Shown here: one piece after another, positions 25,868-53,840 of the stretch
Numbering within the stretch: position 1 is the stretch's first letter
How the letters are laid out: the number at the start of each line of letters is the position of its first letter
Assembly: GCA_964017045.1 (NCBI GenBank)
Contig: OZ024794.1
Coordinates: forward strand, 2,125,501 to 2,189,500
Source: Omphiscola glabra
Taxonomy: Eukaryota > Mollusca > Gastropoda > Lymnaeidae
DNA: 64,000 nt
Direction: 5' to 3'
Program-made: the position numbers and the translations under genes
Notes under the pieces: model-generated
The model's input: the letters and a program-made list of their open reading frames with translations, nothing else
Databases searched by the model: none
Told to the model about the DNA's origin: nothing

Positions 25868-27700
25868 GACTCTGACACCCTCGCCTAGCCATTCAGCACT
25901 TAAGCTATCAGTGTATTCTCTGGCAGCAATGCCACCCTCGTCTAGTCATTCAGCACTTAAGCCATCAGGGTATTCTCTGGCAGCCGTAAAGATATCGTCG
26001 TCAAACCAGCTGACAATGGTGGAGCAGTTGTTGTGTGGGACAAAGATCTGTAGATCATGGAGTCCCATGGGCAACTAGAAGACAGCCAGTTCTACCAACA
26101 GAGGACCAACAACCCTCTTACCAAACATAACAACATGGTAAAAGAGACTATCAAGAAAATTATTGCAGAATTGGCACTCCCCAAATCGGCCTCTGCCTTA
26201 CACATCTTTGATAGGGACCTCGGTAAGCCATGCTTCTGCCTACTTCCCAAAATACACAAGTATGGTAACCCTGGCAGACCTATTGTCTCAGCATGCTCTT
26301 GCCCCACCGAACATATCTCGGAATTCCTTGAAGGAGTCTTTCAGCCCATCGTATCCTCACTGCCAACTTACATTAAGGACACCAACCATGCTTTACAAAC
26401 CTTTGAATTTTTCATACTCCCTCCTGAAAAGAAACATCATCTATTTCTTCCTGATGTACCGGGGTATGTTCTCTATACACTTCTATCCCCCACACTGACG
26501 GTCTCTTAGCTCTCAAATTCTTTCTCCAGACTAAACCCCACCCATCTATACCCACCAACACCCTCCTCCGATTGGCTGAACTAGTCCTCACCCTCAATTC
26601 GTTTGAGTTTGGTGGCCCATTCTTCGACCTAATCAGTGGTGTTGCTATGGGGACCAAAATGGGACCCAGCTATGCATGCTTGTTTATGGGACCTTTCGAA
26701 CACATGGTCGACAGCAGCTATACTGGAAGCCTCCCTGAATTCTATAAGAGGTACCTAGATGACGGTATAGGGGTTACCACTATGGAGAGGAGTGAACTTG
26801 ACCTTTTCATTAACTTTGTAGGCTCCTTTCACCCCTCCATTAAATTCGCATCTCTTGTCTCTGAGACCGCAGTCAACTTCTTGGACATTACTGTCACCCT
26901 TCACACAGACAGCCTACTCACCTCTGCCTACTTTAAGCCAACTGACAGCCACAGCTGTCTACTCTACTCTTCCTCCCACCCTAAATCCTGTAAAGACTCT
27001 ATTCCTTTTTCTCAATTACTTCGTCTTCGTCGACTTTGTCGGTCGGAAGAGGACTTTTGGGACAAAGCACTTGAGATGATAGACTATTTCCGATATAGTC
27101 TTACCCGGAGACAGTACTTTCATCAGCCCTTCAAAGGGTTAAGAAAATTACCCGTGCGGATGCCTCAGGTCTCATCTGAGCGACAATGTTGACAGGACCA
27201 AACTTATTATAACGTATCACCCTCACAATCTAATAGCTAAACGGGACATCTTCTCCTCCCCGCCTCTCATTGTTTTCAGACGGGACAAAAATCTGAGAGA
27301 CCTCCTTGTACGCAGTCACATCAACGCTGTCCCCTCCCACTTTGGGACCAAACCATGTGGCCGCAGCCGGTGCAACACTTGCCCTTTTGTCGTCCAGACT
27401 CAACACATACATTTCCCTAAGGGCAGTTTTCAGATACGCGGCGGTTTCGTTTGCACTAGCCGCAATTTTTGTCTACGCTATTGTTTGCACCCGCTGCCAG
27501 ATGTCATACATTGGGGAGACAGGACAGGTGTACTGAACACCTCCGTAATATTACGCAAGATAAACAATGTCCTGTCTCCAAACACTTCAATAGAGCCGAC
27601 CCCAGGGCAAGGCGGACTTTTCAATATGTGCGATCGTGGCTAGCAAAAGCACACCCAGCTGGGTGAATTTGGAGCACAAGCTTATCTTGACCTATGGCAC
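25868..27700 (+). mobile_element. Penelope-like element, decayed
   Basis: In order: a conserved start KDIVVKPADNGGAVVVW (near 25985, then a stop), a first reverse transcriptase part (PKIHKYGNPGRPIV near 26245), a second frame at 26572-27192 with SGVAMGTKMGPSYA, the YLDDG catalytic box near 26755 and the TDSHSCLLYSSSHP signature, a CGRSRCNTCPF zinc-type motif near 27355, and YIGETGQ near 27510 from a GIY-YIG endonuclease. This order is diagnostic of Penelope-like retroelements. At least four frameshifts or stops mark a dead copy. A 58-bp direct duplication precedes it at 25868-25985. Confidence 0.85.
26572..27192 (+). pseudogene. Penelope-like reverse transcriptase, central part
   Basis: A 206-codon frame holds the palm motifs of the Penelope-type reverse transcriptase, with YLDD at about residues 60-65 and the conserved FLDI and HPKSCKDSIPFSQ segments. 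It is cut from its N-terminal half by a frameshift near 26460-26570 and from the endonuclease part by another after 27190. Confidence 0.8.
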
Positions 27701-28512
27701 ATTTTCCCCACATTGTATGAACGTCATGTCTCTATTCCTTGTTTGAACCTAGCTCCGCCCCTCCACGTCACGACCTATCGCAGTGGACTTACTTCTCCTC
27801 TTTTCTTTACTTTTCCTTATACTTATTTTCTGTCACAAGTAATTTTCTGCCCTCTTGGATACTATTTCTCAGCTAAGTACTATGTTTAAATTTTATTCTT
27901 TTTTTCCTGTTTGTTCGCTGATTAAGGCTTCCTGCCGACACGTTTGTTGTTTTGTTGCGTTCCTTTTTTCAGATTTAACCTTACTTATATTTACTAATTT
28001 CCTATTCTCTGGCAGCAATATTATCTTTAACATCTTTCAGTCTTTTGGCAGCCACTCCAAGACGACGCAACTTTTTCGTGGAGGTGCAGGTGGTCCTGGT
28101 GGTCATTTCTTTCTTTAAGGCATAAAACGCTTTTCACTTTGAATGATGTTCTGACCATTTGAAATTATAGGAATATGCACAGACATCACTTTGTTCAGAT
28201 TTTTTGTGTATGCATGTATGTTCAGATTGCCATGTTCATATGTTTTGTATGCATATATGTCCAGTTTAGCTAGGTCATTGGGGTCCATGTAGGAACTACG
28301 GTTTACATGTATTTTTTATATTACCTTCCTACTGTGGCCATTCATTATTTTAAAAACCTATTTCATTATGATCACCATTTTATGAAAGTAACGATCAATG
28401 CCATTCATGAAGAGCACTGGATTATGGGGGAGGGCAAACCCACTTTTACTAAACACTATCAAAGTATTTCAGTTGCTAGTTAAGAAATTGTACACGTGCC
28501 ATCATTCTATGT
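27701..28512. other. No gene seen
   Basis: Probably includes the untranslated tail of the Penelope-like element (GGCAGCCACTCCAAGACG near 28045 and a CTGGCAGCAA word at 28010 shared with 25920). Nothing else recognised. Confidence 0.3.
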
Positions 28513-28866
28513 TACTGTTAAGAAAATGTGTACACATATCCTAAAGAGAGCTACAACACTCTGACACATATTACTGTTAAGAAAATGTGTACACATATCC
28601 TAAAGAGAGCTACAACACTCTGACACATATTACTGTTAAGAAAATGTGTACACATATCCTAAAGAGAGCTACAACACTCTGACACATATTACTGTTAAGA
28701 AAATGTGTACACATATCCTAAAGAGAGCTACAACACTCTGACACATATTACTGTTAAGAAAATGTGTACACATATCCTAAAGAGAGCTACAACACTCTGA
28801 CACAGATTACTGTTAAGAAAATGTGTACACATATCCTAAAGAGAGCTACAACACTCTGACACAGAA
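28513..28866 (+). repeat. 59-bp satellite, six copies
   Basis: Nearly identical 59-bp units containing ACTGTTAAGAAAATGTGTAC and AAGAGAGCTACAAC. One difference (CATATT to CAGATT) marks the last copies. Confidence 0.9.
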
Positions 28867-29092
28867 AACAAAGACATTAATGACATTGACAATTTATTTC
28901 TATCTCATCAATACATTTATCTCCAATCAATATTTCAATCATTAAAAAAAATCAATAAATACTGATGATTAATCTATGTCAGTGAATGTTGCCACTAGTC
29001 ACTTAAACTTTCCAACCGGGTCAAAATGTTATCCTATATTTCATTTGCCCATTGACTTATCATAACAAGTTGTAGACTTGTTTTAATCACTC

Positions 29093-29098
29093 TTTATT
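29093..29098 (-). terminator. Candidate ZCCHC4 polyadenylation signal
   Basis: AATAAA on the minus strand about 700 bp past the ZCCHC4 stop codon and beyond the 29-bp array. It is the first clear canonical signal I see; transcript end not proven. Confidence 0.35.
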
Positions 29099-29341
29099 CA
29101 CTTCAATTGTACAGAAATACAAAAAATGCAATTCAACCATGTCTGTAGAGTATGCTGGTAAATCCATTGAACCATGAAACCAGGAAGTTCAACTACTTGA
29201 TATGTGAAACTACTTCATACACATTTGCATACCAGAACAAAAACAGCTCTCATTCAAGTTGTATCTGAAAAGTGTCACACTAGGAGGGGGAGGGGGGGAA
29301 ACAATCTATTGATTTTTAAAACTTAAAAAGCTGTTCAAGCA

Positions 29342-29805
29342 GAAATAGGTCAGTCTTATGACTTTGACATGAAATAGGTCAGTCTTATGACTTTGACATG
29401 AAATAGGTCAGTCTTATGATTTTGACATGAAATAGGTCAGTCTTATGACTTTGACATGAAATAGATCAGTCTTATGAGTTTGACATGGAATAGGTCAGTC
29501 TTATGAGTTTGACATGGAATAGGTCAGTCTTATGAGTTTGACATGGAATAGGTCAGTCTTATGAGTTTGACATGAAATAGGTCAGTCTTATGAGTTTGAC
29601 ATGAAATAGGTCAGTCTTATGACTTTGACATGAAATAGATCAGTCTTATGAGTTTGACATGGAATAGGTCAGTCTTATGAGTTTGACATGGAATAGGTCA
29701 GTCTTATGAGTTTGACATGGAATAGGTCAGTCTTATGAGTTTGACATGAAATAGGTCAGTCTTATGAGTTTGACATGAAATAGGTCAGTCTTATGAGTTT
29801 GACAT
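29342..29805 (+). repeat. 29-bp minisatellite containing the ZCCHC4 stop codon
   Basis: Exactly sixteen 29-bp units. On the minus strand each unit starts ATGTCAAACTCATAA, the last five codons of ZCCHC4 including the stop, followed by GACTGACCTATTTC. The first unit (29777-29805 side) belongs to the real gene end. A six-unit block (174 bp) beginning with the AGATCAG variant occurs twice, at about 29458 and 29632. Confidence 0.95.
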
Positions 29806-32800
29806 GGCGTTGTGTTTCTTTGCCCCGACGATGCCGCATTTCTCACTTTGTTTTCGCTTGCCTAATCTGAAGATCAATGTGATAGTGATAAGTAGAATGT
29901 CATAAGCAGAATGCCATAAGTAGAATGCCATAATTAGAATGTCACAAGTAGAATGTCCTAAGTAGAATGAACAACTTAGTAATAAACAATTTAATTTGAT
30001 AGTTTAGAGCTTACTTTTCTTTATCTTATGTGCCATGTGTGCCATGTGTGCTATGTGTGCCAAGTGTGCCATATTGTGTTTAGAGTTAGGATTTTTAATT
30101 AATCTATTAAGGAAATAATATTCATCAATTTTATAACTTAAATAGTTTTAGCCTTCCTTACCTTTATCTTTACAACTCAATATGGACTTTAAAATTATGT
30201 TAGAATTATAATGTCATTTGAAATTAATACAATTTTTGGAATTGTTACTTGTACCATTTTTTTAAAGGGAAGTAATGACTTTATTTTTGTGTGGACAATT
30301 AACACCCACAGAGTTACTGGTACTTTAACTTTTGAGAAAAAACCTGCTGATAAAAGAGGACTCTATTTTTTGTTGTATGTACCTAATTGTTTTAAGAGAG
30401 TCCACATTTGTTGTCCTGACTGGACAGTCTCTCCTCTTGTGGTCTAATTCTCCACAAATGTGACAACCTTGAAAAAAGAATTGCATTGTTATTAGTTGCA
30501 CTCACACCTAAGAAAGATTATGCAAATCTAATTCTGTCTGCAATGATATTAATACAAATAGACAATTAGATATCTAAAGTAATACATGTAAACAATTAGA
30601 GATTTAAAGTAATACATGTAAATAATTAGATTCTTAAATTATCATACAAATATAAACAATTAGATATCTAAATGTTATCATACAAATATAAACAATTACA
30701 TATAACAATGTTATCATACAATTAGTCAATTAAATAAATCTTAAAAACATTCTTTTCCTTTAGATACTGTAACAAAAATTGTTGTTTAGGGCAAACAATT
30801 GTTTTTGTAAATTAACAGAGAAATTATTAAACGGTATTATATCTAAATTATAATCTAACTACATTGTATCAGAAATTTAAGCAATCACAAAGAATGTAAC
30901 AGTTAACTGAGCTCCCCCAAATGAGTGCCATCCAAAAATTGAGTGCATCCAACAATTGAGTGTCATCCAACAATTGAGTTGCATCCAACAATTGAGTTGC
31001 ATCCAACAATTGACTGGTATCCAAAAATTGAATGGCATCAACAATTAGGTGGCATCTAACAGTTTGGTGGCATCCAATAATTTAGTGGCACCCAACAGTT
31101 GAGTAGCATTTCCTTACTGAGATTGGACAATTCATTCTTTCAGCCCATCTAAAACTCCTGGTATAACTATAACTCTCCTAGCAAACTACGTGCCAGTATT
31201 CATTTGTACTTCACTTGTATTTTAATGTTGTAATTGTAATTGTACCTAATAAAACTTTCTGGCCACACACATGATCTTTGAGTTGGCAAACTCCACACTT
31301 GTAACAGTGACTACGAGATGGCTTCACACAGCGTAGACAAGCATCACAGTGAACATACGTTGTACCATCCTAGTTTTTGGAATAAATGGTTTCAGTGAAG
31401 ATATGTTATACCATCCGAATTTTTGAGATAATGAGTTTCATATCTATATCTTTACATCTGTAACAATGAAGAATTCTAATTATAACATAAAGAAATGATA
31501 CAAGTTTATGTTTTCAGGATAACATTTCAACAGCAAATAAACAGGTGGACTAATTTACACATGAACAGATGAACAAATGCTTCAACTTAAAGTACAATAT
31601 ATTAAAAGCGCTGACTCCTGTGCATTTTCTCATACAGAAATTAAATTGATTCCTTTTTCACACTTTCTAGGTCAGGGTCTCAAACACATGGACCACATGA
31701 GTCAATCAAACACATGAGTCAATCAAACACATCAACAGCATGAGTCAATCAAACACATGGACCACATGAGTCAATCAAACACATGAACCACATGAGTCAA
31801 TCAAACACATGGACCGCATGAGTCAATCAAACATATGGACCACATGAGTCAATCAAACACATGAACCACATAAGTCAATCAAACACATGGACCGCATGAG
31901 TCAATCAAACACGTGGACCACATGAGTCAATCAAACACATGGACCACATGAGTGGTATGTGCAACATATTGTAAAAGATTTATGTAACATATTGTAGAGC
32001 ATACTTGAACTTAATAATTTATAAAGGTGTTGCAGCCCTAGGTACATTTATTTCTCTCAAAGATCCCTGATCTACACCATGCATTCCTAGAATCATAATC
32101 TGCACATTTTAATTGGCAAGATGCATGAATTCTACAAGCACAACCATTTTACCTTAGATGTACATGCTCTGCAGTCTTTACAGTGCCAGTTTTCTTTTGA
32201 TGAATATTTTTGACAGCTTTGGCAGAACCTATAAGAAATTATGCACATATTTTTATCCTTACACACAATGAAAAAATGTAGACATCACAATTAGGGATGT
32301 TAATGCAGGCTTTTTAGACAAACAAGTTAACAGTTTAAATAGCTTTTCAATGCAGATTTTCTTTAAATTTTTATGTGTATTATCTTGACATTGTAGTTTT
32401 CTTTATATATGGGGGAGGGGGGGTAAAGTATGTGAGACAGTGACCTTCCAACTTATGAATAGATTTGACCTTTCAATAATTATGACCTTCCAACGTATCA
32501 ATAGTTATGAACTTCCAACATATCAATAGTTATGAACTTCCTACTTATAAATAGCTTTGACCTTCCAACTTATAAATAGTTGTCATCTTCAAACTTATAA
32601 ATAGCTATGAGCTTCCTACTTATAAAATGCTATCTCAGAATAAACGTTTACAATATGAAGGGGAAAACAATTTCCAGAAAACAAATCCAGTCACAACGGG
32701 TTTTTAACATCAGTCCATCCAGTCACAACGGGTTTTTAACATCAGTCCACTGATGTCCATCCAGTCAAAACGGGTTTTTAACATCAGTCCACTGATGTCC

Positions 32801-35800
32801 ATCCAGTCACAACGGGTTTTTAACATCAGTCCACTGATGTCCATCCAGTCACAATGGGATTTTAACATCAGTCCACTGATGTCCATTCAGTCACAATGGG
32901 TTTTTAACATCAGTCCACTGATGTCCATCCAGTCACAATGGGTTTTTAACATCAGTCCACTGATGTCCATTCAGTCACAATGGGTTTTTAACATCAGTCC
33001 ACTGATGTCCATCCAGTCAAAACGGGTTTTTAACATCAGTCCACTGATGTCCATCCAGTCACAACAGGTTTTTAACATCAGTCCACTGATGTTCATCCAG
33101 TCACAATGGGTTTTTAACATCAGTCCACTGATGTCCATTCAGTCACAACGGGTTTTTAACATCAGTCCACTGATGTCCATTCAGTCACAATGGGTTTTTA
33201 ACATCAGTCCACTGATGTCCATTCAGTCACAATGGGTTTTTAACATCAGTCCACTGATGTCCATTCAGTCACAACGGGTTTTTAACATCAGTCCACTGAT
33301 GTCCATTCAGTCACAACGGGTTTTTAACATCAGTCCACTGATGTCTATTCAGTCACAATGGGTTTTTAACATCAGTCCACTGATGTCCATTCAGTCACAA
33401 TGGGTTTTTAACATCAGTCCACTGATGTCCATCAAGTCACAACGGGTTTTTAACATCAGTCCACTGATGTCCATTCAGTCACAATGGGTTTTTAACATCA
33501 GTCCACTGATGTCCATTCAGTCACAACAGGTTTTTAACATCAGTCCACTGATGTCCATCCAGTCACAACGGGTTTTTAACATCAGTCCACTGATGTCCAT
33601 TCAGTCACAACGGGTTTTTAACATCAGTCCACTGATGTCCATTCAGTCACAATGGGTTTTTAACATCAGTCCACTGATGTCCATCCAGTCACAACGTGTT
33701 TTTAACATCAGTCCACTGATGTCCATCCAGTCAAAACGGGTTTTTAACATCAGTCCACTGATGTCCATTCAGTCACAACGGGTTTTTAACATCAGTCCAC
33801 TTATGTCCATTCAGTCATGTAAATACATTTACTGTTGATTAGTTATTTTATTTTATTTTTTAAGATCTGGATTTTTTCTTATTTTTTATATTTCATGACA
33901 AAAATAATATGATCAAGGGTTTTTAAAACACATTTCTTCAGCAGCTTTATATCAAATGAATTCATGTTCCTGTTTTTAAAAGTTATGCTAAGGAAACTTT
34001 CAGATTTGGTTTCAGTTGAAATATTCTATGGACTTTGAGAGTTAACAAATAAATCAATTTCATCAAGTCTCTCAACAATAAACTACTTTGTCCATCTAAA
34101 ATACTTTGTCCATCTAAAATACTTTGTCCATCTAAAATACTTTGTCCATCTAAAATACTTTGTCCATCTAAAATACTTTGTCCATCTAAAATACTTTGTC
34201 CATCTAAACTACTTTGTCCATCTAAACTACTTTGTCCATCTAAACTACTTTGTCCATCTAAAATACTTTGTCCATCTAAACTACTTTGTCCATCTAAACT
34301 ACTTTTCCCATCTAAACTACTTTGTCCATCTAATAAAGTCGCATAGGAGATGGCGTTGGTGGGCCGTCGAGCGCGAGCTCTTAATGCCCCCCCCCCGGCA
34401 ACCCCCCCCCACACAAGCCAGTGCACTGAAGGTCTCCCCGACGTCAGCCCAAGCGGAAGGGCACTAGGAACTCCCCCTATGCCTAGGGGAAGCCCGGTCG
34501 ACCGATGACGCTGCGTTTAAAGGGTCCGCAGTCCACTCTCCGAGGGTCAGGATGGGTTTGCTTCCACTCCGGAGGGAAGGTGTTGCGTTACCTCCCCCTA
34601 CCGCCCTGGGAGTCTTTCGGTCGGGACGAGTAGTGGCGGGACGAAACGGTTGCCTAGGAGCGGCTTTCTCACGGCCGCATAGCTAAAATCATCTGCAGGA
34701 GTTTTGGCCACCACCCAGGCCTCATATCCATCAACGGCAACATGTAATCATGTTAGTCGCTGTTCCTGTTGCGTTGGGAGTCATGCGTTTGGCCGGGGTA
34801 TTTTGCTTCGGGTGAACAAGTCACCCCTACTAGTCTGCCACGCCACTAAGAGGCAAACCCCATGTGGACGTCCCCAAGTCTCCTCGGGATGCTGCCGCTT
34901 ACGCAGCATAGACTTTGTCCATCTAAATTACTTTGTCCATCTAAACTACTTTGCTCATCTAAACTACTTTGTCCATCTAAACTACTTTGCTCATCTAAAC
35001 TACTTTGTCCATCTAAACTACTTTGTCCATCTAAACTACTATGCTCACCAGTATCCCTCGTCAGCTGGCAACCTGAACAAAACCTGAGAAATGTTTGTAA
35101 ACATTCGTACAGGAGATCCTTTCTTTTTCTGTTGACTGTTGAAGAGGTTGTGATTGTCGTAGTCCACCTGTTGAAAATATTATATTCAATGAACTAATTA
35201 TTCAGTGTTTGGACTGCCCTAAAGCTTGAGTAGAATAACAAGACACAAACAATTTGTGCCAATAACAACGGTGTAGGTAAGCTTTAATCAAACATCCAAA
35301 TTTAAAATGTTTCAGCCAATGATGTTTCAGATTAATAAAAATAAAAATAACATGAATTTTAATTAAATTTATCATAGCATGTATCCTATCTATCATAACA
35401 TGTATCCTATCTATCATAACATGTATCCAATCTATCATAACATGTATCCTATCTATGACAACATGTATCCTATCTATCATAACATTTATCCTATCTATCA
35501 TAACATGTATCCTATCTATCATAACATGTATCCTATCTATGACAACATGTATCCTATCTATCATAACATGTATCCTATCTATCATAACATGTATCCTATC
35601 TATGACAACATGTATCCTATCTATCATAACATGTATCCTATCTATCATAACATGTATCCTATCTATCATAACATGTATCCTATCTATCATAACATGTATC
35701 CTATCTATCATAACATGTATCCCATCTATCATAACATGTATCCTATCTATCATAACATGTATCCTATCTATGACAACATGTATCCTATCTATCATAACAT

Positions 35801-38800
35801 GTATCCTACCTATTAAATGATTAAAAGGAATGAAAGGAAAAGAATGGACACAAGGCCAACACAAAAATAGAGAAGAGAAGAAAAATAAGGAAGTGGGTGG
35901 AAGTATTATGTACAACCAAACAGAGAACTATTGCAGCATTGTACATTTGTGAATTGGTTCATACAACATGCCCAGCATAGAAAGATTGTAACTTATAATC
36001 AACATGCCCGGTATAGAAAGATTTTACCTTATAATCTAACATGCTCAGTATAGAAAGATTTTACCTTATAATCTAACATGCTCAGCATAGAAAGATTTTA
36101 CCTTATAATCTAACATGCTCAGTATAGAAAGATTTTACCTTATAATCTAACATGCTCAGTATAGAAAGATTTTACCTTATAATCTAACATGCTCAGTGTG
36201 GAGAGATTCTGTAAAATCCTTTTCTCCATAAAGTAAGGAAAAAACAAAATCATGGGTAAGAGGAATCCTGAAGATGAAATACAAACAAATAGAATTACAT
36301 AGAATTAAATAGAATTACATAAAATTACATATAATTAAATAGAATTACGTAGGAAGAAATAGAATTACATAAAATTAAATAGAATTACATAAAATGACAT
36401 AGAACTAAATAGAATTATATAGAATTACATAATATTAGATAGAATTACATAGAATTAATAGAATTACATAGAATTAAATAGAGTTACATATAATTACATG
36501 GAATTACAAGGAATTGAATAGCATATAATAGAATTGCACAGAATTACACACCATCACATAGAATTACATAGAATTTCATAGAATTAAATAGAATTAAATC
36601 GAATTACATAGAATTACACAGAATTGCATAGAATTACATAGTATTAAATAGAATTAATAGACTTACATTAAATAGAATTACATAGAATTAAATAGAATTA
36701 TATAGAATTACATAGAATTACATAGAATTAAATAGAATTAATAGACTTACATTAAATAGAATTACATAGAATTAAATAGAATCATATAGAATTACATAGA
36801 ATTACATAGAATTACATAGTATTAAATAGAATTAATAGACTTACATTAAATAGAATTACATAGAATTAAATAGAAGTATATAGAATTACATAGAATTACA
36901 TAGAATTAAATAGAATTACATAGAATTAAATAGACTTACATAGAATTACATAGAATTAAATAGAATTACATAGAATTAAATTGAATACATTTCAGTTTTG
37001 GTTGAGCCATAATACACCAAGTAACAATGTGACATGAAGCTGGCACATCATTTACAGGTCTGATTTCAGATTCAATTTCTAACAGCTGCACTTGGATCTA
37101 TCTGAACAGCTGCACTTACAGCTATCTGAACCTTCATTCACTCAATCCCCTGCTTATTGTAACAGCTGCACTTACAGCTATCTGAACCTTCACTCAATCC
37201 CCTGCTTATTGTAACAGCTGCACTTAGATCTATCTGAACCTTCATTCACTCAATCCCCTGCTTATTGGATTACTTCTAAACTGTGACTGGAATGGCACAT
37301 ACCTTTCTCTATGCTGGCATCTCCACCTGGGCGCAACTCTTTCAGCATGGAAGAAATCTTGGTAAATGATGACGCCAGTGCTTCAACCATGCCACCAAAG
37401 GGTGGATCTGCCACCAGGATGGTGTGCTCTTTACCTTCACTGAGAAACTTAGAGACCTTGACCTCACCCTTTGGCTCAAAGAAATGGTGATTAAACATGT
37501 TGTACTTTGTAAACAGAGCTGGTGGGTAGATCTGAGCCTGAGGAAGCAACAAACAAAAATGGTGATTAAACATGTTGTACTTTGTAAACAGAGCTGGTGG
37601 ATAGATCTGAGCCTGAGGACACAACATGCAAAAATGGTGATTAAACATGTTGTACTTTGTAAACAGAGCTGGTGGATAGATCTGAGCCTGAGGACACAAC
37701 CTGCAAAAATGGTGATTAAACATGTTGTACTTTGTAAACAGAGCTGGTGGGTAGATCTGAGCCTGAGGAAGCAACATGCAGAAATGGTGATTAAACATGT
37801 TGTACTTTGTAAACAGAGCTGGTGGATAGATCTGAGCCTGAGGACACAACCTGCAAAAATGGTGATTAAACATGTTGTACTTTGTAAACAGAGCTGGTGG
37901 ATAGATCTGAGCCTGAGGAAGCAACATACAAAAATGGTGATTAAACATGTTGTACTTTGTAAACAGAGCTGGTGGGTAGATCTGAGCCTGAGGAAACAAG
38001 ATACAACTTATCTCATTCACAATTATAATAAAATGGCTGGCACAAGACAAAAGTTTATAGATTAGAACTTCATTAAAAACGATTTTAACAAATACAAAAG
38101 TATAGGCATATATACATAATAAGAAGAAACGAACTAATGAAGTTTAAATTACATAGAATTACATATACTAACTAATGAAGTTCAATCATGATATGAACAC
38201 ACTAACTGACACCGTTTTAAATAATAGTCCAGATGTTGCGGGTTCCATCAGTGACTATTTTTATTTAAACATTCATAGTATCCTAAAGAATAATAAATAT
38301 CTATAAATAGATAAGATATAAATGATTTCACAGAAAGAAGATATACACTTTGAATCCTGGAATATTTCGTTCTCACTTCACTTAAATCAAAATTCCTAAA
38401 ATATATTCACAACATCTCATATCATTTATTCACAACATACCCCTTTCACTTCAAAATCTTATGTACAAAATCATGATCTACAATCACAGTTTTCATTATG
38501 GCTGCCCAACTCCAAAACTGTTTCTTCCACCTGACCAAACCAAACACTCTGATTGGCCAGTCTTAATATAACACAAAACTTTGTGTATCTAGGCATGGGG
38601 AATGTAGAAAATTAACTATATCAATTGTTTCCCATCAGTGGTTATAAATTCGTAATGCTAAACATGACACCCGCCCCATCATTAAAAAAATTGGCACATT
38701 TTTTAAATTATTTGACACAATAACATCAGCCAAGTCAAATAATCATTAACAAATTATACGACATCTTAACTGATGCCAAACGTTTTTTTAATGCATACTT

Positions 38801-41800
38801 AATAAAGAATTTAGGTTCAAATTCATACTTAAGAAAAAAGGAATTATGCTTAAATTTATACAAATCTAGTAAAAATGTGAGCTTAACTTTTAAAGGTAAA
38901 TCACTTACATAACGTTCATCTAAATCCAGCAACATGGAGGACATTGACATGTTCCCAGATCTTTTGCCATTTTGGACAGCTTCATGAATTCTGACAGTGA
39001 AAATGAATCATCAGCATAAGTGATGCATGTAACAAAAATAAATAATTTACTAAACTTTTTCTTACATTGTAGTTTTAATATTTTTTTATGATGTCTTTAA
39101 AACAAAGTGTGTGTTTTTTTTAAAGCTTTTCCTGCATTAGCTTTACATAATCATACACAGTAGAGAGAAACTTTGAAAACAATTTCCTTACATTACTACA
39201 TAATCATACACAGTAGAGAGAAACTTTGAAAACAATTTCCTTACACTACTACATAATCATACACAGTAGAGAGAAACTTTGAAAACAATTTCCTTACATT
39301 ACTACATAATCATACACAGTAGAGAGAAACTTTGAAAACAATTTCCTTACATTACTACATAATCATATACAGTAGAGACAAAATAAAAAAAGACTATTTC
39401 CTGGATCAAGTTGAAATCAAATTTACTTTTAATATTTAAATCCTCTTTAACAATTTTTTATTTTCCTTTGTGAAACAAAATAGCAGAGTGCCCACTCAGA
39501 AATAATAGTATTTTTCAATTGTATTGAATTATTTCTCAAGATGGCAGAACCTAATATATACTGTCTGATAGTTGAATAATAGGCATGATGGAGTTCCAAC
39601 ACAAATATTGATATATTTTATACATGCTGTTACACACCATAATGGTTTTGAAAATGTAATCTGTTTTAAGATTTGGCTCGTACAATGAACAAAACAAAAC
39701 AAAGGACTAAAATGGGTGAGAATACAAAGAAAATGATACCAAAGCTAGTGATACTAACAAGATTCAATTAATTATACTATAAAATTTCTGTAAAAATACA
39801 AACATACAGAAAGCAAAAAAAAAATGTATCAACTTACAGCAAGTGAAAAGGTAACTTTTCGATAAATTCAAATATTAATTTACACACACACATGAAGAGT
39901 ACAAAATTGCATTTATATAATGTCTCATATATATGTTAGGAAATATAGAAAAAATATCTCTCGGCTAAGAAAGCTGCTGGCCTATAAATAGGATTAAATC
40001 AGAACCACCTACTAAAGAAATTGTAGAAATTGTGTCATTTGACAGCATTCTTTAGAAAAAATTGAACGCATTCGAACATAAACAACCTTTTCCCAAGTGA
40101 GGGTGGGGTGGGTAAGGATTGACACAGCAAATTTACTCTGTTATTATCATGCAAATCAAAGGGGAGATAAGTGGTGTTGGCTAAAAATAGGCCTAAACAC
40201 ATGCTATAACAATACTGTGATATCCCACACATATTTTAATGTTATATTTACAGTTACTGTCAAGTTCCAACACAAAAATTGATATAATAAAAACTTACCT
40301 GGGAGTTCCAACACAAAAATTGATCTAATAAAAACTTACCTGGGAATTCCAACACAAAGATTGATATAATAAAAACTTACCTGGGAGTTCCAACACAAAG
40401 AACATGAGTAAACCCAAGACTTTCAAAAGTGTTCAGTAAAAAGTCAACAGTTGTTTTTGAAAACAAGTATTGCTGAAATCAGAACAGATGTTTATCACTT
40501 TAATTCATATTTAAATTATTTTAATTTCATCAAATATAATTTAACAATTATTGAATTATTTCAGAAGAAAAGGATTGTTTGTTGTATGATGCTGGGTGAT
40601 TTAAAATTTAATGTTTTTAAAAATACAACAACTCACAGCAAATGTTTTATTGTCATCCAGTGGCTTAAAGAGGAAAGATGGCTGCTTCAGATCTTTCAGT
40701 CCAACTTTGTGCTTTAACAAGTGCCCCTTGTTGGCATGATCTGACAGCTCGCCTTCCAGCAGCAGACTTCCACAAGTGCAACATACACTACGACTGGATC
40801 TTGGCAGCTTCTTGAACTGGAAATACCTGTAAGATAATATAACATTTAATATACTTTGAGAATTATTTGTCTTCTTTTATGTGTTCATTAAAAGAAATTA
40901 ATATGATCAAGAAGTAGGGGAGTAGGAGGAGAGAATGGGGGAGTAGGAGAAGAGAAAGGTGAGTAGGAGGAGAGTATGAGGGAGTAGGAGGAGGAGTGAC
41001 AATGTTATCATTTAGTAGTTTTAAAATATATTTTTCACATTTTGATAGGTAATAACTTACTTCTAAAATGTTAGATGTGAAAAAAATGCTGTACATCAAT
41101 GTTATTTTAATTTTTCACTTAATTTATGGGAAACATAATTTAATATGTTAGAAAAAATTCATATAGAATAAATGATTTTGCTGTTAGAATGAAAGATTTT
41201 AACTATGTTGAGAAGTTTTTTTATTCTAAAGTGTGTTCCACCTTTATAAATAAATGAATTATAAAATAAAGCAACCAACATCTGTGCCAGAAAGATCATG
41301 TTAATGTCATAATCTTTCTTTAAGACATTGTCTTGAATACAAAAAATATTTATATTATATACACATTTTTTGTCTACATCTTTTCACAAGATGATGCCTT
41401 TTTTTTACTCTATTTCAAATCTTGTCTTTTAAAAATATAGATTGGAAACACTGGATGAAACAAACATAATGATCCCCCTTTGTCTTAGCACATAGTTTCT
41501 TCATTTACATGGGAGCTAAAATTACCTGTTTCTTAAATCTTTGTGAGAAAAACGGTTGCCTTCTATGTTTAAACTGGTGTTTGATGATTTCTGATCCACC
41601 CATTGAAAAAATTGGCATTGTTTTCTATCTCTAAATGCAGAACATGCAAAAAATTGACGATTTTGACTTGTACTTTTATCCCATCGCTCAAAGAGAAGGG
41701 TAGGACCTAAATTTGGAAGAAAAATATAAAACCTATATTAATTTGTTTGTTTTTTGGTCCTGCATTTCTTCTGACATTAGCTTAACTTAATTGGCAAGAC

Positions 41801-42652
41801 TGCAGCTATGACTGCATTGACAGCTCATTTTAAACCCCACAAAGTTGGCTGTTATAATCTTAGTTTAGTACCTCTCTCCCAAACATTAGTTTTGCTAATG
41901 AGTTCAGTCCATTCCACCCAGATATTGACCCATTCCATCCAGATATTGACCCATTCCATCCAGATATTGATCCATTCCACCCAGATCATTCCACCCAGAT
42001 ATTGACTCATACTACCCAGATATTGACCTATTCAAAATTCAAACCTGCCAGCTAAGGCAAGATTAGCACCACAGGGATGACACTACGCTTTCAAGATATA
42101 ATACTTTACATAATCATATCAATAATGGAAAGAAAAAAAACATCAAGTTTTAAACACAGGAAGCTAAGGACGATAGATTGATTATATTTTTGTTTATAGT
42201 TACTTTACAGATGAAATTATATCAACAATTTAGGAGGCATAATTTAGTGTATTTACCAAGACTGACAGACAAATCCTTCAATTAAACTTTATTTTCGTTC
42301 TTTATTTCATAACTCTCATGCTCAGTTTATTTTTCCTTCAAAATTCTTTTCAAATCCCTTGTGCGGTTATCCAAAATGTAGTACTTTTGCCATCCAAATA
42401 GATCCATATTAATAACGTATTAAATTTGCTTAAGGAAAGTCCTTGATAATTGTGACTATTGTTCTCAAGTTCTATTGATGGACTATTACTATTAGATGTT
42501 CATACCGTGTGGACAAGATGGGGAGTGATAATTGTGACTATTGTTCTTTTGATGGACTATTACTATTAGATGTTCATACCGTGTGGACAAGATGGGGAGT
42601 GTACATCTTTTCCCAGTGGAACCAATTCAATATTTGCTTGCTTTGCTGCCAT
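29791..42652 (-). CDS. ZCCHC4: rRNA N6-adenosine methyltransferase ZCCHC4, 12 exons
   Basis: Exons on minus: 42652-42580, 41706-41526, 40826-40637, 40472-40381, 38990-38909, 37537-37303, 36267-36176, 35167-35049, 32228-32153, 31369-31246, 30467-30383, 29866-29791. All introns are GT-AG and phases join to a 474-residue protein (human about 513). Visible parts: GRF zinc finger (residues about 22-66, CPHGPTLLF to FFQW), a C2H2-like CCTCG segment (exon 3), Rossmann LCVGTPR (exon 4), YNMFNHHFF and the catalytic DPPFGG (D250, exon 6), LDYKVDYDNH (exons 7-8), a Cys/His-rich cluster (exons 9-10), a CCHC knuckle C423-x2-C-x4-H-x4-C436 (exon 11) and a basic tail. The family methylates a 28S rRNA adenosine. 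Unusually, many exon edges lie inside tandem repeats. Confidence 0.93.
29883..29972 (+). repeat. 15-bp repeat in last ZCCHC4 intron
   Basis: Five copies of AAGTAGAATGTCATA, next to the exon 12 acceptor but not including it. Confidence 0.75.
30545..30725 (+). repeat. Degenerate AAACAATTAGATATCTAAA repeat
   Basis: Five to six imperfect copies in intron 10 of ZCCHC4. Confidence 0.65.
30915..31115 (+). repeat. About 20-bp repeat
   Basis: Roughly ten copies of ATCCAACAATTGAGTTGC and variants, intron 10 of ZCCHC4. Confidence 0.8.
31340..31440 (+). repeat. 46-bp duplication over the ZCCHC4 exon 10 acceptor
   Basis: CAGTGAACATACGTTGTACC at 31347 recurs diverged as CAGTGAAGATATGTTATACC at 31393, followed in both by ATCC and a T-rich run. 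The unit carries the first 23 bases of exon 10 and its acceptor; in the outer copy the AG has become CG. Confidence 0.75.
31675..31958 (+). repeat. 24-bp minisatellite
   Basis: About eleven copies of ATGAGTCAATCAAACACATG plus four bases, in intron 9 of ZCCHC4. Confidence 0.9.
32447..32637 (+). repeat. Imperfect repeat, about 25-bp words
   Basis: Seven degenerate copies of ACCTTCCAACTTATAAATAG in intron 8 of ZCCHC4. Confidence 0.7.
32680..33820 (+). repeat. 42-bp minisatellite, about 27 copies
   Basis: Units contain CCACTGATGTCCATTCAGTC and ACAACGGGTTTTTAACATCA. CATCAGTCCACTGATG inside the unit is a near-perfect palindrome, so each unit could form a small hairpin. A 361-codon frame runs through because 42 is divisible by three; it is not a gene. 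Lies in ZCCHC4 intron 8. Confidence 0.95.
34079..34333 (+). repeat. 18-bp minisatellite, first part
   Basis: About fourteen copies of CTACTTTGTCCATCTAAA, with AAATAC and AAACTAC variants in blocks. The array resumes at 34911 after a GC-rich insertion. Confidence 0.95.
34334..34910 (-). mobile_element. GC-rich insertion splitting the 18-bp array
   Basis: About 570 bp of strongly GC-rich sequence, unlike the AT-rich surroundings, interrupts the satellite. On minus it runs from CTATGCTGCGTAAGCGG to CTCCTATGCGACTTTAT. The array words TAGATGGACAAAGT on both sides could be a 14-bp target duplication, but the tandem array makes that ambiguous. It contains no long ORF. Best guess is the 5' region of a non-LTR retrotransposon; class not recognised. 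Confidence 0.55.
34911..35048 (+). repeat. 18-bp minisatellite, second part, touching ZCCHC4 exon 8 donor
   Basis: Seven to eight further copies of CTACTTTGTCCATCTAAA and the CTTTGCTCATC variant. On minus the donor of exon 8 reads G then GTGAGCATAGTAGTTTA, and the neighbouring unit reads GATGAGCAAAGTAGTTTA, 16 of 18 bases alike, so the unit appears derived from the donor. Confidence 0.85.
35378..35818 (+). repeat. 21-bp minisatellite, 21 copies
   Basis: Unit CATGTATCCTATCTATCATAA; a GACAA variant recurs at regular three- to four-unit spacing. Lies in ZCCHC4 intron 7. Confidence 0.95.
35967..36187 (+). repeat. 37-bp repeat carrying the ZCCHC4 exon 7 donor
   Basis: Copies start at 35967, 36003, 36040, 36077, 36114 and 36151, and the exon itself continues the series at 36188. 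On minus each unit carries GCATGTTAGATTATAAG then GTAAAATC, that is the last 22 bases of exon 7 plus its donor. Four duplicate donors are intact (GT at about 36137, 36100, 36063, 36026) and the outermost is mutated to TTAC. Confidence 0.92.
36285..36992 (+). repeat. 10-bp TAGAATTACA microsatellite-like array
   Basis: About seventy imperfect copies of TAGAATTACA and TAGAATTAAA. A longer block with AATAGACTTACATTAAATAG recurs three times (about 36655, 36735 and 36835). Lies in ZCCHC4 intron 6. Confidence 0.9.
37080..37270 (+). repeat. About 60-bp repeat, three copies
   Basis: Copies share TAACAGCTGCACTTACAGC, TATCTGAACCTTCA and CAATCCCCTGCTTATTG with a 10-bp length variation. ZCCHC4 intron 6. 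Confidence 0.85.
37486..38010 (+). repeat. 75-bp repeat carrying the ZCCHC4 exon 6 acceptor, seven copies
   Basis: Units start at 37486, 37561, 37636, 37711, 37786, 37861 and 37936. On minus each contains TTGCTTCCTCAG or a close variant followed by GCTCAGATCTACC and the codons for YPPALFTKYNMFNHHF. So the polypyrimidine tract, the AG and the first 50 or so exon bases are repeated. Seven functional-looking acceptors result. The unit is 25 codons with no stop, so any acceptor keeps frame with the exon body. Confidence 0.95.
39144..39372 (+). repeat. 53-bp repeat, four and a half copies
   Basis: Units start at 39144, 39197, 39250, 39303 and 39356 and contain CATACACAGTAGAGAGAAAC. ZCCHC4 intron 4. 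Confidence 0.9.
39650..40150 (+). repeat. Dispersed 0.5-kb repeat, copy 1 (ZCCHC4 intron 4)
   Basis: Shares ordered words with 58620-59095: AATCTGTTTTAAGATTT, CCAAAGCTAGTGATA, AATTTACACNCACAC, GGGAAAGCTGCTGGC-like, AACATTCTTTAGAA-like and AAACAACCTTTT. Same orientation. Class not recognised. Confidence 0.65.
40264..40400 (+). repeat. 41-bp repeat carrying the ZCCHC4 exon 4 donor
   Basis: GTTCCAACACAAA occurs at 40264, 40305, 40346 and 40387, the last being exon 4. On minus each unit reads GTTGGAACTCCCAG then GTAAGTTTTTATTA, so the last 19 exon bases and the donor are repeated. Two extra intact donors lie 41 and 82 bp downstream of the real one. A stray diverged copy is at 39592. Confidence 0.92.
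41905..42030 (+). repeat. 19-bp repeat in ZCCHC4 intron 1
   Basis: Six copies of CATTCCACCCAGATATTGA. Confidence 0.8.
42449..42600 (+). repeat. Duplication over ZCCHC4 exon 1 donor
   Basis: The block GATAATTGTGACTATTGTTC to GTGTGGACAAGATGGGGAGT is present twice in tandem, the outer copy having seven extra bases. It contains the last 20 or so bases of exon 1 and the GTATGAAC donor, so a second donor follows 72 bp downstream in the intron. Confidence 0.88.
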
Positions 42653-43190
42653 CTTGTGATCCTTGGTACTATTCAAGCTAGGCTATGAATCTCAATGAAA
42701 GAAATATCTCAAATATATTAAATTTAAATACTATAAGAATTATCATAACAGCATATTTGTATAAAATTTTACACATATTATAAGTCAAGAAAAGTCCTGT
42801 TCAATATAGTCAGTATTGAGCATATTCTCCAATGCAGCTGTCACTTTTCAGGAATCTTTTTTTAACAGAATGGCTGCACCAGATACGCTGTTACTGAAAT
42901 AGGACATGACCATGGCCATGGGTGGGATAGAACTGACCTTTTTGAAATTCATAAAACTTAAGGAACATGAAATCCTAGCTGAGTATTTTGACAATTTAAC
43001 TTCAGTTTCTTTGGCATGTCCAGATACTTACAAATCTGTTTACGAATCTGTGTAAGAATTTATTGACACCATTTGCAACAAATTTTATTTTAAAACAATT
43101 ATAGCTAAGTGTAAAAGTAGAGATTTGCGAGGAAGAACAACTTGTGTATGGGAAGCTTCCTAGATGAAGTTTTGAATTTGTCAATGATAC

Positions 43191-43590
43191 GATATGCTCC
43201 TGTATGTTAAGATATGCTCCTGTATGTTAAGATATGCTCCTGTATGTTAAGATATGCTCCTGTATGTTAAGATATGCTCCTGTATGTTAAGATATGCTCC
43301 TGTATGTTAAGATATGCTCCTGTATGTTAAGATATGCTCCTGTATGTTAAGATATGCTCCTGTATGTTAAGATATGCTCCTGTATGTTAAGATATGCTCC
43401 TGTATGTTAAGATATGCTCCTGTATGTTAAGATATGCTCCTGTATGTTAAGATATGCTCCTGTATGTTAAGATATGCTCTTGTATGTTAAGATATGCTCC
43501 TGTATGTTAAGATATGCTCCTGTATGTTAAGATATGCTCCTGTATGTTAAGATATGCTCCTGTATGTTAAGATATGCTCTTGTGTGTTAA
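43191..43590 (+). repeat. 20-bp minisatellite with a splice donor in every unit, 20 copies
   Basis: Perfect or near-perfect GATATGCTCCTGTATGTTAA repeated twenty times (43191-43590), with only three single-base variants by eye. Each unit contains a strong donor-like GTATGTTAAG and an ATG eight bases before it. The following sequence to 43633 is pyrimidine-rich and ends in TTTTAG, a good acceptor. Confidence 0.95.
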
Positions 43591-43633
43591 CAAAACGAAT
43601 GTTACTTTCTTGTTCTCATATTCTTGCTTTTAG

Positions 43634-44690
43634 AAGATTTGTGTGTGAATGGTGTAAACATTTATCTATTTTTGATAGCCAATCATGTGACGCAAGATGG
43701 CAAATGAGTCACGCTGAAGATTTACTTTTTCCTAAATGCACCAATGTTCAGTTTAAAACCTTAAATTTAAAGACATCCAAAGTTTTAAACAATTTGAAAA
43801 ATTTTCAACAATTTCAAAATTATGTCAAGATTTGTCTCACATGTTTTCTGGGCAATACCAGATTTAGGGAGATGGAAATATTATTAGAGACCATTATTTC
43901 TGGGGTAATAAATGGATCTTCCATCAAAATAGTTTTTAATGACAATACTTTAGGTCAAGATGAGACAATTACAGATTTATTTGATAAGACTGTTGCTCAA
44001 GATGCGACAAATATTGATACATTTGACAACAACCCAACTACCATAGAAATTGAAAATACCGGTAGTGATATTAACATGCTGGATGACAACCCTGATGGCA
44101 TAGTCATTGTCAATATTGAGCCTGCATTAGACATACTGGATGTACATGAAATAGACATTGACCTATTAGGTACTGTTGAAAAAACTACCGATATAGGTTG
44201 TGACACATCTGACCATCAAAATACTGGAGTGACTGATGTTGAAATTTGAATTTAATTACATGCATTCCGCATAATGTGGTATGGCAGCCACACCTAAAAA
44301 GAAAATTTGTCAGTTTTTTGGATGAAGACCTAAAGGAATTCAGGGATTCTGTAAAATCCCCAAAACGTATTGCCAGGAAAGGTCGACCTAAAGGCAGTGA
44401 CACTTCTGTAATTGGATTGGCCAAGTCTAAAGGTAAAAATAAGTTGAAAATAACTGCAGCTGCTTCCAAGGGTTTTGAGCCCTTGAACTTGAACCACACG
44501 GGGGAAACAACAGATGATATTGGTGCAGATATAATGCCAGTACCTGAACCTGTCAGTGCTACTAATGCTAAGAGTAGTGAAGGAAGCAGTGATACATGTA
44601 ACTTTTGTTTAGAGGAGGAAGTGTTGTGTGAATGGTGTAATGCAGTGGTGTGATTGTGACAGTTCTGGTAAATGGTTTCATGTAGCCTGT
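43634..44690 (+). pseudogene. Uncharacterised PHD-type gene or transposon-derived ORFs, broken
   Basis: The first frame reads from an acceptor-like TTTTAG at 43633 (RFVCEWCKHLSIF) to a stop at 44249; its second half is acidic with repeated Asp/Asn/Ile blocks. The next frame (44246-44653) overlaps by a few bases in another phase and contains KRKFVSFLDEDL, a basic RKGRPKG hook and TSVIGL, then CNFCLEEEVLCEWC. A further shift near 44640 gives WCDCDSSGKWFHVAC, the second half of a PHD-like zinc finger. The GRPKG...TVIGL segment followed by a PHD end occurs in transposase-derived proteins of marine invertebrates. At least two frameshifts suggest decay. Function unknown. Confidence 0.5.
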
Positions 44691-48213: not shown

Positions 48214-48936
48214 TAGGGGCTATAACTATAATAGGTCTACTATACTAAAGTCAAGTAGGCTCTTTATCTAAAATTTAATTAATAATTTAAGTTTATTTAA
48301 GTTTAAGAGGCTGCCTAAGCCTGCCTAAATACATTATTTAAATTAAATGCCATCATTATCTTTGAGTTTGAGTTGTATTCATTGCGATCATAAATCAAAA
48401 CGGCAAACAATGTAATTTTTTTAAGTGATTCTATTATTTTTCATTTTATAGCACTCTGACTCTTACGGCAAGACTTGCCTTGTAATTGTAACGATAATTC
48501 AGGTACTAAAACTCGACATTGGCAACATCACGTTTCACTGGAAGTTAGAAGAAAACGTCTGACTACTCCCATTAAAAATTATAAATTGTCTCCCATTAAA
48601 AGGGAAGCTATTCCTAAAATAATTTTTTAAGGTGAATTACTTTTGCCTACCCTTTTTAGAAGGCTTTTTAAAAAATATATTTTTAGAATCTATTTTTCAA
48701 AGTGGAAGCCCGCTTTAACTTTAAAAAGACAAATTCTTTGACAATGATGAATGACTACGATTTTGGATTTAAGTGTATTTGTAGCTGCCTTTAATCAACC
48801 GTTAACTGTTATCATTTTTGTTATTTATTATCGATATCTTTCTAACTTTCTAAATAACCGGTATTCAATTTTAATTAACGTTTCTTGACTTATCCGACTA
48901 GTCTATCTTACTGGTTACGCAACACATTTTAAAAAT
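48214..48936. other. MFSD3 5' flank, no gene seen
   Basis: AT-rich; presumably contains the MFSD3 promoter and leader. A partly open stretch at 48500-48630 is not recognised. Confidence 0.35.
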
Positions 48937-51900
48937 ATGATAAGACGCCATCAGGAATATGAGATCTTTGGAAACTCTGTTGAAAAGTTTTTTTTGTTGT
49001 ATCTTGTTCAAGCATTACCAGGTGGATTACAAACTCGTTTTCTGCCAATTTTCTTTCGAAAGAATGGCATGTCCCTTGTGAATCTTGGTTTCTACAAATG
49101 TTTGCTGATTCCGTGGGTTTTTAAACCACTGCTAGTTAACATAGTGGACACTCATTTTAATAAACGTTTTTGGCTAAAAGGTAGTGAAATTATTCTGTTA
49201 TTTCTCTGTATCATTGCGGCTAATTTACCCGCTGGACATAACATTTATTTAGTGTTGGTTTTGTTTCTGATTAATTGCACCACATCTGTTCAAGATATTG
49301 CTCTAGATGGAATTATTCTTGAATCTATGACTCCAGCTGCACTAGTTTCTGGAAATTTTGCTCAAAATGTTGGTGGTAGAGTTGGGTCTATGTTTGCTGG
49401 TGGTTTTTTTGCATCTCTGATTGATACAGTCAGTTGGAAGCATATGTTTTACACCATGGGTGTGCTGTATCTTGTAGGATTTTTCATTTCCTATGCTTTG
49501 CCCCCTTCAAGTGTAAGAGGGTCTCTTGCAATATCTGGTTCTAATACATCTATTACAAGCAATGGGGTGCCAAATGTTCAAGAAGACTTGTCGACGCACT
49601 TGTCTTGCCAATACTTTCAATTATTTCAAACTGCTGGTACCATATGGATGACGTTTTTCCTTTTCTTTTACAAAATGGGTAATATTCTAAACTTGCTATT
49701 TCCAATTAATTGTATCTTAGCGTGATGTAATGGGACTTTTTATATTTTGAAAACAACAGTTTGCCTAATACTAAGTTAAGGCCTAGTAAGGCATTTCATT
49801 TTCAATGATTTTATGTGTTTTAGCAGGTTTTTAGTCAACAAGGAAATTATTTTACTTGATTCAACTATCATTCAATAACAAAAAAGTATTCTAAATTACT
49901 ATCTTTTATATTTATTGATTATAGTTTTCATAACTAGTGATTTATTGATGACATTAAACTTTACACTAATAGATTTTCTACTTTATACAGGAGATAGTGG
50001 TGTAACAAGCACATTCCCAATGTTTTTGATAGATCTTGGTTATGGAGCATCCCATGTCGGAATGTGGACAAGCCTCTCAGGCGATGTATTTTCAATTATT
50101 GGCTCTACTGCTGTAGGAATATTTACTGCTGGGTAATATATAAGTACCTATTATTAAACCTAAACTAAGTAAGTGTTGTAACCTTTATCCATTCTGATAT
50201 CACTTCTGTTGCTATTATATTATTTTATATTATCACATCACACCACTACTTCATTCACTTCATTGGCTCCCTGTACAAGCACGGATTGACTATAAACTCT
50301 CTGTTCTCTGCCACAACTTTTTCTCGCATTCCTGCCCTTCCTATCTAACCTAACTTCTCTCTGACTATTCACCCCTTCGACAGCTTTGCTCCTCCGCAGA
50401 CGGGCATATTCTTTCTGTCCCCAAGACTCACACAAAAACATACGGTGAAAGATCTTTCTCTTACTGTGCCCCCAAACAATGGAATTCTCTTCCACTACAC
50501 ATCCGCAATATATCAACCATCACAGCCTTCAAAACTGCACTCAAAACACATCTCTTTAAACTCTACTACCCCAACTAATTCCCCACATGGCTTGTCATGT
50601 AAAAGTTCTGGGGTGGATGGGGTGAATATGCATTAGTTTTTGTTTTGTCTTTATACAGCTGTTCTTTATTACATAAATGTATTTTATTTTATTGTCACGA
50701 TTATGTCTCTTTTTCTAATATTTTTATGTTTAGCGCGGTGAGCCCAGCCCTAGGCTGGGGTACCGCGCTATATAAGACAACTAATAATAATAATAACGTG
50801 CCGTGGCCTGAGCAGATATCAGATATTAAATAGAGTTCATAATGCATCCATTTCTCTTTAGAAAATAACATGTGAAGTCACTCATGCGTTTTATTTTATT
50901 TTTAATAGTGAGACAAAAATCTTCCTGTTTTTTCATCACAATATGGCAGCTCAAGTAGTTCCTTATTCTCTATAATTATATTCATGTATCACGACACTCA
51001 CATGAAATAGTGATTTCCACTCAGCAGTAAATGAACATCAAATATCATATGTTACAAGTGTGAAAAAGAAGTTTACTTTGCAGATATATCTTTTAAAAAA
51101 TAAATGCTTCATTACCAATATATTTAGCATCTTTAAGGGTAATAGTAGAAATTAAATTAGGGGGAAATATTGATGTAATGTGTGCTTTTACAATATATGA
51201 TTTTTCTCATAATTTTATTACATAATTTAGCTTAGGTCTTATGAAACTCATAGTTTTCTTGTTTCATATCCCTATTTTTATGTACAGGTCAATGCTGAAG
51301 ACATTGATGCTCTTGTCTGGTGTTCGTGCTATCTCAGTGGCATTCTTGTGGCTGTTGTTACTCTATTGGGACAAAACATCTGAATACTCACTAGGTAATC
51401 ATAATATCAGAATCGCAATGTGGCTTTCGAGCCGGTAGGTCAACCATAGACATGATCTGCTCTCTGCGCCAGCTGCACGAGAAATGCAGGGAACAACATA
51501 TGCCTCTATACATCGCGTTTGTCGACCACACTAAAGCTTTTGATCTTGTCAGCAGAAGCGGCCTCTTCCATATCCTTAAAAAAATAGGCTGCCCTGCACG
51601 TCTGCTTAACATCGTCGAGCAGTTCCACCATAACATGCAGGTACAGTATGCTATGACGGTGCCACCTCAGAAGCTTTTCCAGTAAATAGTGGAGTAAAGC
51701 AAGGCTGCGTGCTAGCTCCTACTTTATTTGCAATCTTCTTCTCCATCTTACTCCAGTATGCCTTCCAGAACAACAGCGAGGGGATATACATCCACACTAG
51801 AGCTGATGGGAGATTATTCAACATTGCGCGCCTTAGAGCTAAGACCAAAATAAGAAAGGTCATACTACGCGAGCTCTTATTTGCAGATGACGCCGCTTTA

Positions 51901-53510: not shown

Positions 53511-53605
53511 TGCATTCATCTGATGACCTTATTACATTTTTTTTTACCAAAAATTCTTTTTATTGCCATACACTTCCACAGTACCATTGTGACTGAATGA
53601 TTACA

Positions 53606-53840
53606 GATAGCTATAAATCCAAGCATGTATTATTCTGGAGGTGCCCAGGTGATTCAAAGAGAATTCAGAGACTTTGAGAGGCCTCCCACAGAAACCAATA
53701 TCAATGCTAACAAAAATTATGTTCACCCTGAATTTCATAATTTATTGAAAGAAAAATATAAGACAATTAATGGGGTTCAGGGCATGACACAGTGTTTACT
53801 GTCTAATGTTGAGACCAAAAAATCCCCTTCACTATCCTGA
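53606..53840 (+). other. Open exon-like segment downstream of MFSD3
   Basis: An acceptor-like GATTACAG is followed by an open frame with an ATG at 53625 and a stop at 53838; residues such as FRDFERPPTETNINANKNY are of ordinary soluble composition. It lies 100 bp past the MFSD3 stop. It could be an alternative last exon, part of the 3' untranslated region, or chance. No family recognised. Confidence 0.25.

Follow-up and report, generated by a model that had tools for sequence, protein, structure and literature searches.

Does the edge of an exon attract tandem duplications, or does it tolerate those that happen to fall there? The question is raised by a 64,000 nucleotide stretch of DNA from the snail Omphiscola glabra, referred to here as the window, in which tandem arrays lie across several exon-intron junctions of one gene. 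An earlier note had proposed that at least seven exon edges of this gene are caught in arrays, that chance overlap on this scale is unlikely, and that junctions either start duplications or tolerate them.

The host gene encodes ZCCHC4

The coding region extends from 29791 to 42652 on the minus strand, start to stop codon, as defined by a gene model and homology. Exons were placed by eye from translated minus strand frames, guided by the ZCCHC4 sequence, and the placement was checked afterwards. The model spans 12862 bp, of which 11437 bp are intron. It consists of 12 exons separated by introns that are GT-AG in 11/11 cases and it yields 474 residues followed by a stop codon. The gene is intact, and the earlier identification of a 12-exon ZCCHC4 gene is confirmed.

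Residues 10-439 of the product match 6uca_A, a ZCCHC4 chain of solved structure (E 6.7e-117), and Pfam domains PF10237 and PF06839 are present. Among the best 120 of 643 matches the closest is Lymnaea stagnalis ZCCHC4, at 92% identity and 100% query coverage. Next among the listed matches are Biomphalaria glabrata (69%) and Physella acuta (62%). The alignment with L. stagnalis takes in the entire query; the L. stagnalis protein has 20 additional N-terminal residues and one 1-residue gap. With similarity over its full length, the host gene is ZCCHC4, a predicted rRNA methyltransferase with a GRF zinc finger and an N6-adenine methyltransferase domain.

Tandem arrays saturate the introns

Arrays were identified with TRF at score 50 over the whole window, which returned 103 rows; those that overlapped were combined manually. 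In 29001-42700 an ungapped offset scan recovered most of the TRF arrays and added a duplication at exon 1, but missed a 46-bp duplication whose copies are about 80% identical. TRF at score 30 produced 14 further rows in 29001-42700, all with units of 12 bp or less and none covering a junction. The gene contains 19 distinct arrays in total, with an 18-bp array split into two halves counted once and its half at 34912 dropped.

Array bases make up 5319 of the 12862 bp of the gene span and 5166 of the 11437 intron bases (45%). The share differs widely among introns, from 0% in intron 3 to 86% in intron 6. TRF arrays cover 24% of the window, 40% of the gene and 0% of the region at 48889-54100. Because arrays are this dense, some overlap with junctions is expected. 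Outside the arrays there are 354 open reading frames, given here as a count only. Rfam gave no matches in the whole window at gathering scores, and a known structured RNA was rejected on that basis.

Two short-unit arrays, at 29888-29969 and 36289-36990, each end 21 nt upstream of an acceptor (those of exons 12 and 7, respectively), as if the pyrimidine tract held the arrays off.

Five of the 22 splice junctions lie inside an array

In a strict count, a junction is captured when exon and intron bases both lie inside the array. This is the case for 5/22 junctions, namely the donors of exons 1, 4 and 7 and the acceptors of exons 6 and 10. Each captured junction holds 19-56 exon bases, and all of the arrays concerned are on the minus strand.

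The exon 1 donor (junction 42579/42580) lies in a duplication of about two copies at 42469..42601 with an offset of 74 bp, which includes 22 exon bases. The copies are 98% identical over 59 nt in the offset scan, and the duplication is absent from the TRF rows at score 50. The exon 4 donor (junction 40380/40381) is in a 41-bp array of 3.3 copies at 40263..40399 holding 19 exon bases, and its CAG/GTAAGT donor occurs three times. A 26-nt fragment of this unit recurs in dispersed form at a distance of about 650 bp within the intron (39590-39615, 92% identity); it may be left over from an array that was once more extensive, or from an earlier one. The exon 7 donor (junction 36175/36176) belongs to a 37-bp array of 6.6 copies at 35965..36208, with 33 exon bases by the TRF limits. 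Five copies keep AAG/GTAAAATC, and the sixth reads AAG/TTAC.

The two acceptors are captured in arrays of different kinds. At exon 6 (junction 37537/37538) the array consists of seven 75-bp units at 37482..38006 and includes 56 exon bases. At exon 10 (junction 31369/31370) a 46-bp unit is present twice at 31347..31440 with 23 exon bases. The intronic copy there has TTCG in place of CTAG and has lost its AG.

All 22 junction segments (40 nt on each side) were also searched against 28000-44000 at E 1e-3. Apart from the dispersed piece at 39590-39615, repeat matches were obtained for the donors of exons 1, 4, 7 and 8 and the acceptors of exons 6, 7 and 10.

The earlier count of at least seven edges therefore stands for five splice junctions and the stop codon. 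A 29-bp array with 16 copies at 29342..29806 on the minus strand includes the exon 12 stop codon in its first unit, and the remaining units are downstream of it; a stop codon is, however, not an exon-intron junction. The exon 8 donor had also been placed in an array and does not belong there. Its neighbor is the second half of the split 18-bp array, at 34912..35047 on the minus strand, the other half being at 34079-34333. This array ends at 35040 according to TRF or at 35047 according to the ungapped scan, and the exon 8 junction is 35048/35049. Since the array stops 1 nt short and holds no exon base, the exon 8 donor was rejected as a captured edge. The array at 43191-43590, whose end had served as the end of the earlier stretch, was rejected as well: its 20-bp units begin 539 bp before the start codon and touch no coding edge. 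The unit lengths of 75, 41, 37, 46, 29 and 18 bp given earlier are all present, and the unit of "about 72" bp corresponds to the offset of 74. As had been proposed, the units are unlike in length and sequence, so that the events look independent, and an intact site is kept at each captured junction.

The 18-bp array of intron 8 is interrupted by a 578-bp insert with 59.5% GC at 34334..34911, to which no strand is assigned. At E 1e-3 nothing else in the window matches the insert, and there is no Rfam match either; it is probably a mobile element.

Arrays of up to 16 copies with units matching at 94-97% are hard to assemble, and one might suppose that they are assembly artefacts or that their copy numbers are wrong. 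The copies bear distinguishing variants, however, and identity within the 46-bp duplication has fallen to about 80%, which marks it as old. We regard an artefact as very improbable.

Captures exceed the chance expectation about threefold

The number of captures was compared with a null in which each array was collapsed to one seed unit and placed at random along the collapsed gene. We consider the seed unit, and not the expanded array, to be the proper null, since all that expansion does is to add sequence to the intron. The collapsed gene was 8316-8375 bp long in the first random placements and 7607 bp in the shift and later variants with the full set; the latter is shorter because it also lacks the insert and the half of the split array at 34912. 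The score-30 TRF rows were left out, and their inclusion would raise the expectation slightly.

With 19 arrays and exonic seeds allowed, five captures were observed against a mean of 1.54 (p 0.013). Barring wholly exonic seeds changed the mean to 1.73 (p 0.022), and removing the insert changed it to 1.94 (p 0.035). A circular shift of the junctions gave a mean of 1.68 and p 0.015, and p was 0.014 with mirroring. When an overlap of at least 6 nt on each side was required, p was 0.0077. Adding the stop codon as an edge gave 6/20 arrays against 1.8-2.0 expected (p about 0.01). Other variants were less decisive. Footprints of 1.5 units gave p 0.07 and 0.10 (with and without wholly exonic seeds, respectively), the 18 TRF arrays alone gave four junction matches with p 0.04-0.18, and among arrays of three or more copies 3/17 were at junctions (p 0.19). 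Counting exon 8 lowered p to 0.002-0.03, though its donor is not captured. Two cuts on unit length were made after seeing the data: 5/14 arrays with units of at least 20 bp are at junctions (p 0.010), as are 5/8 of those with units of at least 35 bp against 0.98 expected (p 0.0008). Leaving aside these cuts and the runs that count exon 8, p ranges from 0.0077 to 0.19, and the expectation is 1.5-1.9 against five observed.

Pure chance may thus be insufficient for five captures. The earlier view that chance overlap is unlikely holds to the extent of this excess, but weakly, since most p values are between 0.01 and 0.1, the introns are 45% array and the gene was picked by eye. The excess is approximately threefold and its significance modest, and the single gene in which it occurs was chosen because it looked unusual; it is suggestive, a lead and no demonstration.

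The excess could mean that junctions are favored sites for the birth or retention of duplications and that capture is truly enriched in this genome. Co-transcriptional structures are one possible route, and an exonic founder copy that is protected by selection and reseeds the array is another. The main tests (p 0.013-0.035), the count with the stop codon included and the post hoc observation that five of eight long-unit arrays are at junctions argue for enrichment. Against it are the selection of a single gene for its striking look and the loss of significance with wider footprints, with TRF arrays alone or with arrays of three or more copies. The neighboring transporter locus has no TRF array, so it provides no test of overlap. 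On balance we think genuine enrichment unlikely, though it deserves more credit than the alternatives taken up below. The claim that junctions start duplications finds no support here, as toleration by itself suffices.

Probable tolerance of minisatellite births

The explanation we prefer, with a probability of about 0.62, is that the arrays are intronic minisatellites of the ordinary sort in a repeat-saturated gene, and that five seed units straddled junctions by chance, perhaps with a bias in retention. The arrays would have arisen through slippage or unequal exchange. Duplicating an exon tail with its donor, or an acceptor with the exon head, would shift the extra copy into the intron, and the protein would remain unchanged provided that splicing keeps to the exon-proximal site. 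Use of the exon-proximal sites at every junction gives the 474 residues that match L. stagnalis end to end, and this agreement of the predicted protein supports their use. No repeat-derived residues occur at the array-bearing junctions in the proteins of four aligned relatives, L. stagnalis included.

Donors and acceptors should differ in what they can tolerate. In a donor array the true site would be the upstream-most of the series, so that any unit length might be tolerated. Use of a further donor would add 37-148 nt, and early stops would follow at 7/7 of the later donor copies that keep the motif; the protein would end at residue 179 (exon 4), 326 (exon 7) or 28 (exon 1) instead of 474. 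None of the donor offsets (41, 37 and 74) is divisible by three, so the protein is compatible only with predominant splicing at the first donor.

In an acceptor array the extra AGs would lie upstream, nearer to the original branch point, and would be expected to persist only if the AG dies or the unit is in frame. Both acceptor arrays have such a way out. At exon 10 the extra AG is dead, as the intronic copy has none, and 48 AG-free nt precede the true acceptor. At exon 6 the 75-bp unit is frame-neutral. The asymmetry between donors and acceptors may amount to a rule, drawn as it is from five cases of which two are acceptors.

The exon 6 array calls for separate consideration. All seven acceptors are intact (7/7 CAG), in frame and open, and 450 nt are open altogether. 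The frame is open from each of the six extra acceptors (6/6), each of which would add 25 residues. Alternative acceptors might therefore insert one to six times 25 residues into the methyltransferase domain, making the array a protein repeat generated by splicing. The distal acceptor adjoins the original upstream intron flank, which favors this proposal. So does the variation among the six intronic copies, where 2/57 exon-derived columns are variable (both changes synonymous) versus 5/18 intron-derived columns (counts made by eye; Fisher p 0.007). The lower variation of exon-derived columns may be due to chance, to homogenisation or to copies that are sometimes translated. Since fewer exon-derived changes point to possible translation, we count them against the tolerance of ordinary minisatellites. 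However, about 57 of the 75 nt are already coding, so that openness and frame come cheaply (we estimate about one in four), and the four aligned relatives have no insert at the exon 6 site. The exon-proximal acceptor is also the richest in pyrimidines (16/20, 0.80), the other six having 13-15 (0.65-0.75). Two intermediate copies have an additional AG at -15. We judge a splice-generated repeat improbable.

A bolder reading combines several of these elements. In lymnaeid genomes long-unit minisatellites would preferentially be born at splice junctions or find refuge there, and splicing would act as a directional filter that passes donors with any unit length and acceptors only with frame-neutral units or dead extra AGs. 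Exon 6 would then show the process in action, with seven near-identical acceptors able to lengthen a methyltransferase by 0 to 6 times 25 residues. Taken jointly, these propositions seem doubtful to us, somewhat more so than enrichment by itself.

The earlier note had also seen a bearing on intron gain. If the introns were born by tandem duplication of AGGT-bearing exon sequence, as in the Rogers model, the arrays would be the remnants. AGGT is indeed present within the exon 4 and exon 7 units, but the exon 1 unit carries CGGT, and 0/5 arrays cover both ends of an intron. The opposite ends of the five introns have no repeat match at E 1e-3 among the 22 segments searched. With no array at both ends of any intron, and no repeat-derived residues in the L. 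stagnalis protein, intron gain was rejected, and we give it almost no credence. What the arrays do is lengthen introns, which is intron growth rather than gain.

Tolerated minisatellites remain our preferred account of the five captures. Should the excess hold across the genome, snail genomes rich in minisatellites would contain numerous natural sets of near-identical duplicated donors and acceptors, spaced at fixed intervals. Such sets would test how the spliceosome chooses among equal sites and whether introns grow from their edges. Without a genome-wide excess, the case would still show that a high density of minisatellites leads to junction capture as an ordinary side effect.

Other features of the window

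A transporter-like gene lies beside ZCCHC4 at 48889-54100, where TRF coverage is 0.000. It gave MFS_1 and Acatn matches below the Pfam cut-offs, and a partial L. stagnalis protein served to map two of its exons; the L. stagnalis match is 91%. This gene and ZCCHC4 are probably neighbors in L. stagnalis too. Two open frames that overlap each other at 51395-52383, within the transporter region, contain fragments of reverse transcriptase (RVT_1). Open reading frames at 26054-27192, which Pfam did not match, resemble by eye a Penelope-type reverse transcriptase. A 432-codon open frame at 1248-2546 is rich in acidic residues and has no Pfam match.

Comparison with known systems

The repeat unit in intron 7 of human factor VII (F7) includes exon bases, as the units described here do. 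The study of F7 describes 37-bp repeats in that intron with the donor in the first copy, and states that normally only the most upstream donor is used (PMC6627357). The ZCCHC4 arrays resemble this system in having donor-bearing tandem units with the extra units in the intron, and a splice site inside the first tandem unit is found at 5/22 junctions. Unlike F7, for which one junction is described there and site use was studied, ZCCHC4 has five such junctions, two of them acceptors, at which site use is predicted from the sequence. No homology is claimed.

Human genes in segmental duplications have internal tandem repeats at exon-intron boundaries that are able to alter splicing (PMC2812944). 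The arrays in ZCCHC4 likewise overlap exon-intron boundaries on this gene model. The human repeats were found as differences between recent paralogues, and about half lie within coding exons, whereas here there is one gene model and the predicted protein is unchanged.

In the tandem duplication model of intron gain, as outlined in two papers, a duplicated AGGT segment gives both splice sites, and the potato RdRp gene provides an example of a duplication across an intron-exon boundary (PMC4974935, PMC3443670). Boundary duplication copies splice signals there and in ZCCHC4 alike. Unlike in the model as outlined there, no new intron is formed in ZCCHC4, and the arrays occupy just one end of introns that already exist.

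Narrow searches of one open-access collection found no description of five junction-spanning arrays in one gene. Arrays that span junctions are a known kind of structure, and the unusual part of this locus is that one gene has five of them.
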